A stretch of 64,000 nt of DNA from a candidate division WOR-3 bacterium (GTDB lineage Bacteria; Hydrothermota; Tepidihabitantia; Tepidihabitantales; Tepidihabitantaceae): positions 766,576 through 830,575 of the forward strand of contig JANLFQ010000001.1 of assembly GCA_024653355.1 (NCBI GenBank). Direction: 5' to 3'. Each line of letters starts with the position of its first letter. The first letter of the stretch is position 1. The translations under genes and the position numbers were made by a program. Below, piece after piece: positions 6,915-21,095 of this stretch. The notes under the pieces are model-generated. The model searched no databases. It saw nothing but the letters and a program-made list of their open reading frames with translations, and had not been told where the DNA came from.

Positions 6915-8942
6915 TTGAGTTCCTTGGCTCGTCCGTTGCGTGCTTTTATCCTGACCTTTCTTATCGTTTTGCTTTTCCTTATCCTGTTTGGCGTTGCCGG
7001 TTTTCTCAAACTACGTGCCGACCTCCCAACTCCGGAAACCATTCTCAACTTCAAGGCGCCAGCCAGCACCCGAATCCTCGACTGTAAGGGTCGAGTCGTT
7101 GCCGAACTGTTTCAAGAAAAAAGGCGTCCCGTACCGCTCGAGACCATCCCTGCCTGTCTCGTCGATGCCATTGTTGCCGTTGAAGATAAGCGCTTCTACC
7201 ACCATTGGGGCATCGACCTCATCCGGGTTGCCGGTTCAATCGTTGCCAATATCCTTCATCCCGGGAACCTGCAAGGTGCTTCCACTATTACTCAACAACT
7301 TGCCCGTTCAATGTTCCTCACACCACAAAGAACCCTTACCCGAAAATTGAAAGAGATGGTCCTCGCCCTTGAACTGGAACGCCACTATTCAAAACAGGAA
7401 ATTCTTGAAATGTATCTCAATCAGGTTTGGTTTGGGGGCTCGATATACGGCGTTGCCGCTGCCAGTGAGAAGTATTTCGGCAAACATGTCTCGCGTCTCG
7501 ACCCGGTGGAGTGTGCCACGCTTGGGGCAATGATTGCCAATCCCAGTGCCTACTCTCCCTACTCCCGACCGGAGCGACTTATCCGCCGCCGCAACTTCTT
7601 TCTCACCAAACTTTACCGGATTGGCCACTTGACAAAAGAGGAATTAGCTCAAGCTTTGGAGAAACCCTTAAATGTTCAGCCCGCCGGTGGTGTAACCAAT
7701 GAAGCCCCTTACTTTGTCGAAGAAATTCGGCGCTACCTGATTAAACACTACGGCTATGACTTTGTCTACAAATCGGGTGCGACCATTTACACTACCCTTG
7801 ACCTCGATATTCAATCTGCGGCCAATCGAATCCTCCTCGGCTGGCTTGACCGTCTTGAAGTCGACTACCATTTGAAACCGACAAAACGATTTTACGACTC
7901 AATCGCTAAGTCGGATACCGCCATTGGTGAACCAACTTATCTCCAGGGCGCGCTGGTCGTGCTCGATGTTAAGACCGGTGAGGTCCGGGCAATGATTGGC
8001 GGTCGGGACTTTCGCGCCAGTGAATTCAATCGGGCGACGCAAGCCCTGCGTCAGGTGGGCAGTACCTTTAAACCCTTCGTCTTCACCGCAGCGATTGACA
8101 ACGGATTTACCGCCGCCGACATTGAAGAAGACAACCCTATCACGCTGAAAATACCGGACCAACCCGACTATCAACCCCACAATTACGACCGGAAATTCCT
8201 TGGTCCAATGACACTGCGCCGGGGATTGGCATTATCGCGTAATCTTATTGCGGTCCGTCTTGCCGCCCGAATCGGACCAGAACTTATCGCTCGATATGCC
8301 AGCACAATGGGAATAACAACCAAACTGCCGCCTTATTACTCCCTCGCTCTTGGCTCAATCGAACTCACCCTTCTGGAAATAACCAACGGGTTTAACACCA
8401 TCGCCAACCAGGGCGTCCGGGTAAAACCCATATTGATTAACCGCGTTGAAGACCAGAACGGTCAGTTACTGGAAGAAAACCACCCGGAACCTCAACTGGC
8501 AATTAGACCCCAAACCGCTTACATAATAACCAGTATGATGCAGAGCGTGGTCAATGAAGGCACCGGCATTGCAATTCGTCAGCTCGGCTTTACCGGACCA
8601 GCGGCTGGTAAAACCGGCACAACTGACGACTACACCGACGCCTGGTTTATCGGTTTCACACCCACACTCACCTGCGGAATCTGGATTGGCTATGACAAAA
8701 AAAGAACAATCTTTCGCGGGGCAACGGGAGGCGTCATCGCTGCCCCGGTCTGGGGCGAACTTATGAAACAGGTCGCCAGCGATACGATGAGCACATTCCC
8801 GGTGCCACCGGACATCACAACCTGCGCTATCTGTGAACAGTCTGGTAAACTCGCCACCCCGTTTTGCCCCCGAGCCCGCTACGAGGTGTTCATAAGTGGT
8901 ACCGAACCAACAACACCCTGTCCCCTGCACAACCGGCCGTGA
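6915..8942 (+). CDS. Penicillin-binding protein 1A, bifunctional transglycosylase/transpeptidase
   Basis: 675 aa, class A PBP that polymerises and crosslinks peptidoglycan on the outer face of the inner membrane. One N-terminal membrane helix (about 10-33) precedes the GT51 domain with EDKRFYHHWGID (catalytic Glu90) and GASTITQQLARS. The transpeptidase domain has the SxxK motif STFKPF (Ser383, Lys386), SRN (441-443) and KTGT (566-569). A Cys-containing tail follows. The start is weakly defined: TTG at 6915 or TTG at 6924, neither with a strong ribosome binding site. It lies 14 nt after the acyl-CoA dehydrogenase gene and may be read from the same transcript. Confidence 0.9.
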   Translation: MSSLARPLRAFILTFLIVLLFLILFGVAGFLKLRADLPTPETILNFKAPASTRILDCKGRVVAELFQEKRRPVPLETIPACLVDAIVAVEDKRFYHHWGIDLIRVAGSIVANILHPGNLQGASTITQQLARSMFLTPQRTLTRKLKEMVLALELERHYSKQEILEMYLNQVWFGGSIYGVAAASEKYFGKHVSRLDPVECATLGAMIANPSAYSPYSRPERLIRRRNFFLTKLYRIGHLTKEELAQALEKPLNVQPAGGVTNEAPYFVEEIRRYLIKHYGYDFVYKSGATIYTTLDLDIQSAANRILLGWLDRLEVDYHLKPTKRFYDSIAKSDTAIGEPTYLQGALVVLDVKTGEVRAMIGGRDFRASEFNRATQALRQVGSTFKPFVFTAAIDNGFTAADIEEDNPITLKIPDQPDYQPHNYDRKFLGPMTLRRGLALSRNLIAVRLAARIGPELIARYASTMGITTKLPPYYSLALGSIELTLLEITNGFNTIANQGVRVKPILINRVEDQNGQLLEENHPEPQLAIRPQTAYIITSMMQSVVNEGTGIAIRQLGFTGPAAGKTGTTDDYTDAWFIGFTPTLTCGIWIGYDKKRTIFRGATGGVIAAPVWGELMKQVASDTMSTFPVPPDITTCAICEQSGKLATPFCPRARYEVFISGTEPTTPCPLHNRP

Positions 8943-9594
8943 AACGCCGGCTCTTATAAAAATTTATCAGGCGCTTTACCGGGCGTTTGGACCCCGGCAC
9001 TGGTGGCCTGCCGAAACCCCTTTAGAAGTTATCGTTGGTGCCATCCTAACTCAGAATACCGCCTGGAAAAATGTTGAAAAGGCAATCACCAACTTGAAAT
9101 CTGCCGGGCTTTTAGAACTCCCGCAACTCAACCAACTCCCCCTGCGCAAATTGGCAACTATTATCAAACCTGCCGGTTATTACAATATCAAAGCAAAACG
9201 GCTTCGGGCATTAACCGAATGGCTGGAAAATTCTGGCGGGCTGGAGAAATTAACAGCAATTCCAACTCCGGAACTAAGGGCTCAACTGCTTCAGATTCAC
9301 GGTGTCGGTCCTGAAACCGCCGACTCGATTCTCCTTTATGCCTTTAACCGCCCGGTATTCGTGGTCGATGCCTACACCCGAAGAATTTTCAGCCGCTACG
9401 GACTCATCTCAGGAGATGAGCCTTATGAGCAATTAAAAAACTGGCTGGAACAGGAACTTACGCCGCTAACAGGCAAAAGTATTTCCCAGACCGTCGCCCT
9501 ATTCAACGAATACCACGCCCTGCTCGTCCATCTCGGGAAAACCCATTGCCGACCGCAGCCGATTTGTCCGGGCTGTCCCCTTGAGTCCGATTGA
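8896..9594 (+). CDS. Endonuclease III-related HhH-GPD DNA glycosylase (COG2231 type)
   Basis: 232 aa, base-excision repair glycosylase. Visible are AILTQNTAWKNVEKAI, the helix-hairpin-helix LLQIHGVGPETADSILLYAF and the conserved Asp in FVVDAYTRRIF. The EndoIII catalytic Lys position is Glu, as expected for COG2231-type members. The C-terminal Fe-S loop shows only three cysteines (Cys-x5-Cys-x2-Cys) followed by PLESD; the TGA stop occupies the place of the fourth cysteine. Reading through would add only LYPDYTLT before TAA. The cluster is therefore incomplete or uses another ligand. The start (GTG 8896, GAGG nearby) overlaps the PBP gene by 47 nt and is uncertain. Confidence 0.85.
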   Translation: MVPNQQHPVPCTTGRETPALIKIYQALYRAFGPRHWWPAETPLEVIVGAILTQNTAWKNVEKAITNLKSAGLLELPQLNQLPLRKLATIIKPAGYYNIKAKRLRALTEWLENSGGLEKLTAIPTPELRAQLLQIHGVGPETADSILLYAFNRPVFVVDAYTRRIFSRYGLISGDEPYEQLKNWLEQELTPLTGKSISQTVALFNEYHALLVHLGKTHCRPQPICPGCPLESD

Positions 9595-9619
9595 CTTTAC
9601 CCTGATTACACCCTAACAT
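9591..9619 (+). promoter_or_regulatory. lptD promoter, -35 overlapping the upstream stop codon
   Basis: TTGACT (9591-9596), a 17-nt spacer and TAACAT (9614-9619). The ATG follows after seven bases, so the transcript should be leaderless. The TGA inside the -35 is the stop of the glycosylase gene. Confidence 0.55.
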
Positions 9620-9626
9620 AACATTT

Positions 9627-11852
9627 ATGCTCTGCCTCTTACTGATACTGACTCAACTGCCACCCGATTCCCTCACACCATCTGCTGACTCCACACCCGC
9701 CGACATCATCTACTACGGTGGCAAACGCGCCATCTATCTCGCTCCCCAAAACCAGGTTGTCTTACTTGATTCCGCCTGGATTCGCTATCGGGATATGTCA
9801 GTTTATGCCGACTCCATCAACTACCACATTGATACCAAAATTGTCAGCGCCCATCAAAATGTAAAATTCCGCACCGCAAGTGAAGAAGTCGTCGGCCGCG
9901 AACTTTTCTACAATGTCGATACCAGAAAAGGAATGATGCGTCACGCCCGCACCCAGGTGGAAAATGGCTACCTTACCGCCTACGAAGTCTGGCTGGTAAA
10001 GGAAAAAGTCCTCAACGCCCGCAGTGCCGATTACACGACTTGCGACCGGGAACACCCCCACTACACATTCTTCGGTCCCCGGGTCCGTCTCTTGATGGAC
10101 GATGTCGCCATTACCCAGCCGGTCCTGCTCCGTATCGGTCGAGTCCCGATTCTTGCTGCTCCGTTCTGGATTGTCCCGGTCGCATCCAAAAGAAAATCGG
10201 GTTTGATGCCCTTCAAAGTAGGAAATGCGCAAGACCAGGGGTACTATGCCAAAGGCATCTCCTACTACTGGGTCATCAACGACTATGCCGATGCCACTTT
10301 CCTCCTTGACTTAATGACCAAAAAGGGAATTCAACTCCGTACCGAAGCGGTTTATATTGTCAACCCGTATGCCCGCGGTTCAATTCAGGGCTCTTATATC
10401 CGTGAAATCTGGGACACGCTTAATCCCGGTCGTGCGCGTTATAGCTTAAACCTTGCCAGCACCGGTAATCTCACCCCTGCCACCGATTTCAACATCCAGG
10501 CCGAACTCATCTCCGACACCGCTTACGCTCCAGATTACGCCGAAGACCGGCTCGACTGGCTTAAACAGGAAGTTTACTCCTACGCTGCCCTGCGTCATCG
10601 CTTTCCTGCCCTGGGCCGTCTTAATCTCCGGGGCGAACGTCGCACTTACTATATGCGTCACTATCAATACTCCTACCTCCCCGCCGGCTCATTCGCCTTC
10701 AACACCCGCACCCTGCCCGGTAACTGGGACTTTTCGCCCGCATTGAGTTTTTCCCGCCGCGTCGAACAGTACGATTCCAACGGTATTGACACCCTGTTGC
10801 GCCAGCGCCTCACTCCGGGATTATCCTTCAACCTCTCCAGTCCTGACTACCCGTTCGGCAGACTTGATATCAGTGACCAGCTTTCAATCGCCGATTTTTC
10901 GCGCCGTTCATCTACCGCGGCACCCTTTTCGTCCCGCCTCTTAAACCACGAAATCACCGTCGCCACATCTCAAAAAATCCTTGGCATATTCAACACGGCA
11001 GAAGGCATCAACTTCAACCAGAGCGACGACCTGCTGGATACAATGCCACTTGAACCCCGTTACTCTCTCTATTTAAGCAGTAGTTTCTCACTCTATCGGG
11101 TATTCGGACTATCAGCGTCTACCATTCACGGTATCCTTCACACCGTTACACCAACTATGCAATTTAACTACCAGCCGCGCGTCACTACCCAGGGACTGTT
11201 TGGCAAAATAAAACTAAATCAGCCGGAAAACGCTTTGCTGGTACTGGGCATCAACAACGGTTTTCAGGCAAAAATCGGTGCAACAAAACAAAAGGTTGAC
11301 TTCGGCACGGCAAACATCACCACCACCTACAACCTGCTCAACTATCACTTCACCCCATTCACCGGCAACCTCAGTCTCCGGCCTTTTGCCCTTTTCCCGA
11401 TTGTTGACTCGGGTCCGGTGCGCAATAACCTGAACCTGTATCTGGACGGTAACTTCTCATTTAACCCCGACTCAATGCGGTTCGGGCAAGACTTTTCCGC
11501 CCTTACCACTTTTCTCTGGACACACACAATCACCGACACCATTCGCCATCAGGAAAAGGGCTGGGAATTGCGCCTCAATCATTCGATTGGCAAAAATATC
11601 CATATGATTACCGGGTCTGTGGCATTCTCCTATGCCGGCTGGCGCCTCGGGCTTAATTCCCTCGGTTACAACATCACCCAGCACCAGGTGACCGACTACT
11701 CATTAACTCTCTGGCGTGACCTTCACTGTTGGGAGGCGCTGATAAACCTTTCCGGGCTAGGCAGGCAGTGGCGCTACGATTTCGAGGTCCGAATCAAAAA
11801 ACTGCCCGATGTTCGTTTCGGCAAAAGTACATTCCGCGCCTTCCTACCATGA
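9627..11852 (+). CDS. lptD: LPS-assembly protein LptD (OstA-like outer membrane protein)
   Basis: 741 aa. LptD is the outer-membrane barrel that inserts lipopolysaccharide. A short signal peptide (MLCLLLILTQL) precedes an OstA/LptA-like jelly-roll region at about 25-150, with repeated Asp/Tyr beta-strands such as VVLLDSAWIRYRDMSVYADS and KIVSAHQNVKF. Then comes the LptD-type segment PVLLRIGRVPILAAPFWIVPV and a long barrel of amphipathic strands to the end. LptD often has disulfide cysteines; few are seen here. The ATG has no ribosome binding site but lies right after a -10 box. Its last bases overlap maf (ATGA). It is good evidence for a diderm with LPS or a similar outer lipid. Confidence 0.82.
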   Translation: MLCLLLILTQLPPDSLTPSADSTPADIIYYGGKRAIYLAPQNQVVLLDSAWIRYRDMSVYADSINYHIDTKIVSAHQNVKFRTASEEVVGRELFYNVDTRKGMMRHARTQVENGYLTAYEVWLVKEKVLNARSADYTTCDREHPHYTFFGPRVRLLMDDVAITQPVLLRIGRVPILAAPFWIVPVASKRKSGLMPFKVGNAQDQGYYAKGISYYWVINDYADATFLLDLMTKKGIQLRTEAVYIVNPYARGSIQGSYIREIWDTLNPGRARYSLNLASTGNLTPATDFNIQAELISDTAYAPDYAEDRLDWLKQEVYSYAALRHRFPALGRLNLRGERRTYYMRHYQYSYLPAGSFAFNTRTLPGNWDFSPALSFSRRVEQYDSNGIDTLLRQRLTPGLSFNLSSPDYPFGRLDISDQLSIADFSRRSSTAAPFSSRLLNHEITVATSQKILGIFNTAEGINFNQSDDLLDTMPLEPRYSLYLSSSFSLYRVFGLSASTIHGILHTVTPTMQFNYQPRVTTQGLFGKIKLNQPENALLVLGINNGFQAKIGATKQKVDFGTANITTTYNLLNYHFTPFTGNLSLRPFALFPIVDSGPVRNNLNLYLDGNFSFNPDSMRFGQDFSALTTFLWTHTITDTIRHQEKGWELRLNHSIGKNIHMITGSVAFSYAGWRLGLNSLGYNITQHQVTDYSLTLWRDLHCWEALINLSGLGRQWRYDFEVRIKKLPDVRFGKSTFRAFLP

Positions 11853-21066: not shown

Positions 21067-21095
21067 TTGACGCAATCCATTTTGTGTCGTAATAT
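21067..21095 (+). promoter_or_regulatory. Promoter of the class II aldolase-like gene (leaderless)
   Basis: TTGACG (21067-21072), a 17-nt spacer and TAATAT (21090-21095). The ATG at 21103 follows after seven bases. Confidence 0.5.

Follow-up and report, generated by a model that had tools for sequence, protein, structure and literature searches.

In Endonuclease III and MutY, DNA glycosylases of the HhH-GPD fold, a [4Fe-4S] cluster is held by the arrangement Cys-x6-Cys-x2-Cys-x5-Cys, and whether its role in HhH glycosylases is structural, lies in DNA-mediated redox sensing, or consists in an allosteric link to the catalytic Asp has been debated. By our own count, C290, C297, C300, and C306 of human MUTYH fit this spacing, and the substitution C306W has been reported to abolish the cluster (PMC12000561). 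MagIII, the 3-methyladenine DNA glycosylase from Helicobacter pylori (PDB ID: 1pu6/1pu7), and MpgII from Thermotoga carry Glu at the site of the Endonuclease III catalytic Lys while conserving the catalytic Asp, and the Glu common to MagIII, MpgII, and Mja-UDG has been named as catalytic (PMC11754123). Sis-HhH-GPD from Saccharolobus islandicus, an alkylbase glycosylase of the HhH-GPD type whose C-terminus carries a Cys cluster, was placed by its authors in the HP0602/PRK13913 superfamily (PMC11754123).

The glycosylase gene described herein is located on the forward strand of a window of 64,000 nucleotides (the whole stretch of DNA that was analyzed) from a candidate division WOR-3 bacterium. 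The ORF (8896..9594; 232 residues, start codon uncertain) follows a PBP1A-family gene (6915..8942, forward strand; TIGR02074, E = 1.1e-182), and is itself followed by lptD and then by a Maf-like ORF. The order of the PBP1A gene and the glycosylase was conserved in the window's own family of relatives, f1, and in the families f2, f3, and f5. With regard to the start, the GTG at 8896 lies within the PBP1A gene, which gives an overlap of 47 nt (8896-8942), and from this GTG up to the conserved core the glycosylase frame contains no ATG, GTG, or TTG. Translation may begin at a rare codon instead, or it may depend on coupling to that of PBP1A.

The ORF matched PF00730 (E = 1e-18) with 68.1 bits against a gathering score of 26.2, and possesses the catalytic Asp after the HhH motif that was found in 184 of 185 relatives, namely Asp158 (9367..9369, forward strand), in an invariant column which aligns without gaps to VDTHVHR of Endonuclease III; it thus belongs to the HhH-GPD superfamily. 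Its best solved relative was MagIII (1pu6, E = 2.6e-22). The AF2 models of the window protein (pLDDT 94.8) and of a His-bearing member of the family described below, L034 (pLDDT 95.0), both matched the folds of MagIII and Endonuclease III. At the site of the Endonuclease III catalytic Lys, alignment placed the 99% conserved Glu140 (9313..9315, forward strand), as in MagIII. Because the protein has neither the catalytic Lys nor the fourth cluster cysteine (Cys4), it is not an Endonuclease III as judged from these sequence features, and because its score of 114.7 bits was below the cut-off of 192 for PRK13913/NF010494, the MagIII equivalog, it does not formally qualify as a MagIII equivalog either. 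The Glu in place of Lys and the best sequence and fold matches to MagIII do place it among the MagIII-like/MpgII-like proteins, and given its fold, its best relatives, and Glu140, it is most likely a MagIII/MpgII-like HhH-GPD glycosylase, presumed to be monofunctional and to remove alkylated bases. While the alignment with MagIII ends ahead of the cysteine triad, nearly all members of the window family carry the triad. With Endonuclease III and MutY the window protein shares the fold, a near-identical triad spacing, and Arg at the fifth and ninth positions after the catalytic Asp (Asp+5 and Asp+9), but it differs from them in the absence of Cys4, in a first spacing of x5 instead of x6, and in the residue at Asp+10, which is mostly hydrophobic (such as Leu/Val) in those enzymes and His or Tyr in the window family. 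Sis-HhH-GPD, for its part, keeps all four Cys residues (203, 210, 213, and 219), whereas the window protein has three.

The first-pass annotation had read the tail of this ORF as Cys-x5-Cys-x2-Cys-PLESD-TGA, with the stop codon exactly where Cys4 would be expected, and this reading was confirmed. On the forward strand, the triad (9547..9576) consists of Cys218 (9547-9549), Cys224 (9565-9567), and Cys227 (9574-9576), and the TGA stop (9592..9594) comes after PLESD, five residues past Cys3. A sequencing error was rejected as the origin of the stop, since an independent genome of the same genus (G111), whose protein is 83% identical, shows CPLESV-TGA within an identical TTGACT, and two further genomes (G107 and G108) have CPLNSR-TGA inside TTGACT. 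To place the tail among its relatives, the C-termini of 107 members of the phylum and 80 proteins from elsewhere were compared, and later 364 loci, of which 348 were usable; the phylum sample comprised 147 genomes. Cys4 was scored as a Cys at x5 after Cys3, so that a Cys at x6 was not counted and CCLRRRC tails were included. The triad was present in 346 of the 348 relatives, with the first Cys spacing varying between x5 and x6; of the two exceptions, one was a truncated contig end. Among these 346, Cys4 was absent from 240 and present in 106, frequencies of a sample drawn from few phyla with the best hits first and not of all bacteria. The glycosylase accordingly falls within a family that is widespread in bacteria and whose members usually lack the fourth cluster cysteine. 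Annotation by motifs demanding four Cys would overlook such putative cluster proteins. The limited collection of literature searched yielded nothing useful on COG2231, fourth-cysteine loss, or the iron-sulfur content of MpgII.

Several residues near the triad were considered as the replacement ligand and rejected as unconserved: His217, which adjoins Cys1, is Tyr in G111; Asp232, at the end of the tail, is Val in G111; and the Asn or Arg residues in the tails of other f1 members are likewise not conserved. In one relative (L170, G146), Ser takes the place of the triad Cys3 with His retained at Asp+10, and this protein is possibly decaying or a two-Cys variant.

The residue at Asp+10 was closely linked to the presence or absence of Cys4. 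This position is Tyr168 in the window protein (9397..9399, forward strand) and His in most Cys4-less relatives; His was found in 217 of the 240 relatives without Cys4, versus 2 of the 106 with Cys4 at x5. Among the sequences added once the pattern had been noticed, the corresponding counts were 79/89 and 2/87. When every column was scanned for a link with the absence of Cys4, His at the position of Tyr168 gave the strongest signal (2.7e-21; the next column, 1.2e-12). A phylogeny-corrected two-trait model favored dependent over independent evolution with a likelihood ratio (LR) of 53, and a control run of the same test gave an LR of 50 for Asp+10 versus at most 20 across 27 other columns. Independent pairs for Cys4 and His were concordant in nine cases and discordant in none when all branches were used, and about 3:0 on strongly supported branches. 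The mutual exclusion of Cys4 and the Asp+10 His is, on these counts, hardly in doubt. The 4-Cys relatives mostly have Leu at this position, and Leu/Val was found both in canonical Endonuclease III proteins with Cys4 and in the 4-Cys Endonuclease III paralogue encoded by the window genome itself. Exceptions were few: 23 proteins had neither His nor Cys4, of which 11 were f1 members with Tyr and several had a Cys displaced to x6-x7; about six Cys4-less proteins had neither His/Tyr nor a nearby Cys, and two proteins had both Cys4 and His. One rare exception is the paralogous second copy in G113 (L175), which has the triad, no Cys4, Leu at Asp+10, and a Cys only at x12. Within f1, the position was occupied by Tyr in 11 of 13 proteins and by His in 2; the latter (L014 from G120 and L017 from G119) branch from within the Tyr-bearing members, as though their His had arisen after the loss of Cys4.

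In both AF2 models, the Asp+10 residue (His151 in L034) is located at the C-terminal end of a short helix beginning just past the catalytic Asp. At a gapless offset from the catalytic D236, both proteins having Arg at +5 and +9, it equals V246 of human MUTYH, which shares the posterior face of the cluster with the fourth ligand C306 (PMC12000561). From the mutual exclusion, together with the position of the MUTYH equivalent on the side of the cluster that faces Cys4, we infer that His at Asp+10 would replace Cys4 as the fourth [4Fe-4S] ligand in the MagIII/MpgII-like family, giving a Cys3-His site. A histidinyl-coordinated MutY cluster has reportedly been engineered (Messick et al., 2002, cited in PMC12000561 and PMC3584444), and for this reason the HhH glycosylase fold would be expected to tolerate a His ligand. 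That cluster was man-made with His at one of the Cys positions, whereas the replacement proposed here would be natural and would come from another helix. Judging from the alignments and by analogy with MUTYH, we consider His somewhat better than an even bet as the fourth ligand in the family. The suggestion in the first-pass annotation that the cluster uses another ligand thus gained indirect support from the Cys4/His exclusion, although the window protein itself has Tyr at the site in question. In f1, where Tyr mostly holds Asp+10, either this Tyr would ligate the iron or one iron would be left open, and Tyr168 as a cluster ligand in the window protein appears doubtful. To the reading as a whole, namely that widespread natural HhH glycosylases carry a [4Fe-4S] cluster on three Cys and a His from the helix after the catalytic Asp, which would link the active-site helix directly to the cluster, and that a Tyr which may ligate took over in the window lineage, we assign a probability of about 0.5. 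If true, such a natural His replacement on the helix after the catalytic Asp would change the coupling of redox state and protons, and would furnish natural variants for testing the role of the cluster.

Alternatively, the cluster could rest on three Cys with its fourth iron open or water-bound, the Asp+10 residue merely filling the room of the shortened tail. The Tyr of the window lineage and the few members with Leu or Thr at Asp+10 and no nearby Cys would suit this explanation; packing, however, would not require His in 217 of 240 proteins, and the 4-Cys proteins mostly have Leu, with His in only 2 of 106, so that an open iron is rather unlikely for the family. A structural zinc site made up of the three Cys and the His, in place of an iron-sulfur cluster, is more improbable still: Cys3-His is a frequent zinc ligand set, and the varying first spacing (x5 to x6) would be compatible with it, but in Cys spacing and fold the family matches the [4Fe-4S] glycosylases, and it includes 4-Cys members of the same spacing.

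The stop codon was also examined in relation to the downstream gene. LptD, the LPS-assembly outer-membrane protein (9627..11852, forward strand, ATG at 9627), was assigned by its match to PF19838 (E = 2.9e-23; 82.7 bits against a gathering score of 22.5). The first-pass annotation had placed the TGA inside TTGACT (9591-9596) as the -35 hexamer of the lptD promoter, which held up: the -35 TTGACT (9591..9596, forward strand) and the -10 TAACAT (9614..9619, forward strand), the latter 7 nt ahead of the lptD ATG in a leaderless geometry, are separated by a spacer of 17 nt, and the hexamers were conserved before lptD in nine genomes of the family. In these nine f1 genomes, TTGACTT-N15/16-TAACAT directly precedes the lptD start, with a spacer of 16-17 and 5-9 nt from the -10 hexamer to the start codon. 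Since one sigma-70-like match is expected by chance per 1 kb, the promoter call rests on this conservation and not on the match alone. The -35 hexamer overlaps the glycosylase stop in four of the nine (including the same-genus G111, and G107 and G108 of another genus) and lies downstream of the stop in the other five; the overlap itself is beyond reasonable doubt.

In leaderless (TA-led) bacterial genes, the -10 box precedes the start codon by about 10 bp (Zheng et al., 2011; PMC3160421). Over 400 kb of the window genome (L192-L211), 32 of 120 matches to TTGAC...TANNNT had, 3-9 nt further on, a start codon that begins an ORF of at least 100 aa, versus 6 of 122 matches in a control with ten permuted -35 words in the same genome, a strong signature of leaderless mRNAs. 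Having its -10 box at 5-9 nt before the start codon, a geometry enriched over these 400 kb, the conserved lptD promoter is probably of the leaderless type. It resembles the TA-led genes of PMC3160421 in the position of the -10 box and in nothing essential departs from them; the lptD case is distinguished by its occurrence in a candidate phylum and by a -35 inside the upstream stop. A leaderless-type promoter of lptD would need its -35 about 36 nt ahead of the ATG, and because the gap between the two genes is 32 nt, the -35 would touch the upstream stop; as TTGAC contains TGA, hexamer and stop can overlap without penalty. The overlap can thus be taken as a by-product of compact gene packing without any special selection, is by itself ordinary, and is very probably incidental to the loss of Cys4.

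The first-pass annotation had further suggested that the glycosylase may have lost its last ligand to selection for the lptD promoter. Under this proposal, a 4-Cys ancestor of f1 would have had TGC or TGT as its Cys4 codon, and the change to TGA would have come about because TTGACT was favored as the -35. In the basal f1 members (G000, G111, G107, G108, and G109), the TGA stop does coincide exactly with the Cys4 position, most f1 genes adjoin lptD, and a 4-Cys ancestor of f1 was not rejected in a tree test (p = 0.31). Furthermore, no case of Cys4 kept beside lptD was found, all 14 lptD-adjacent genes of the phylum being without Cys4. Even so, the proposal was left unsupported and is very unlikely, since the Cys4-less relatives mostly have no lptD neighbor: among 93 phylum genes not scored as directly adjacent to lptD, at least 73 had no Cys at all in the Cys4 region, and relatives from other phyla also lack Cys4. 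Within f1, from which Cys4 is uniformly absent, G109 has its TGA at x5 without the lptD promoter, and in the lptD-adjacent G113, G115, G116, G119, and G120 the same promoter is clear of the stop, yet Cys4 is missing. Tails ending exactly five residues past Cys3 are also common elsewhere; they were found in 41 of the 240 Cys4-less relatives and, outside the two lptD-neighbor families (f1 and f2), in 34 of 221 Cys4-less proteins. The PBP1A-glycosylase order is moreover common to the Cys4-less, His-bearing f2, f3, and f5, of which f3 and f5 have no adjacent lptD. Common descent of f1 with these families was, like a 4-Cys ancestor, not rejected in the tree tests (p = 0.18), and the shared gene order would favor such descent over a 4-Cys ancestor. 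Decay of the glycosylase with loss of the cluster, to which the missing Cys4 and, to our knowledge, the lack of a cluster in the related H. pylori MagIII might point, is scarcely credible given the triad in 346 of 348 relatives, the open frames, and catalytic residues invariant across phyla.

A few further occurrences of the promoter were recorded. In G104 (L190), the PBP1A gene is directly followed by lptD with a leaderless-type promoter, the glycosylase being absent between them. In the window, the leaderless-type signature at 9591-9629 recurs at 21067 and 29275. A second TGA stop within the TTGAC of a leaderless-type promoter was found at the end of a 348-codon frame on contig C1 of the window genome (G000), near 124928 (L198).
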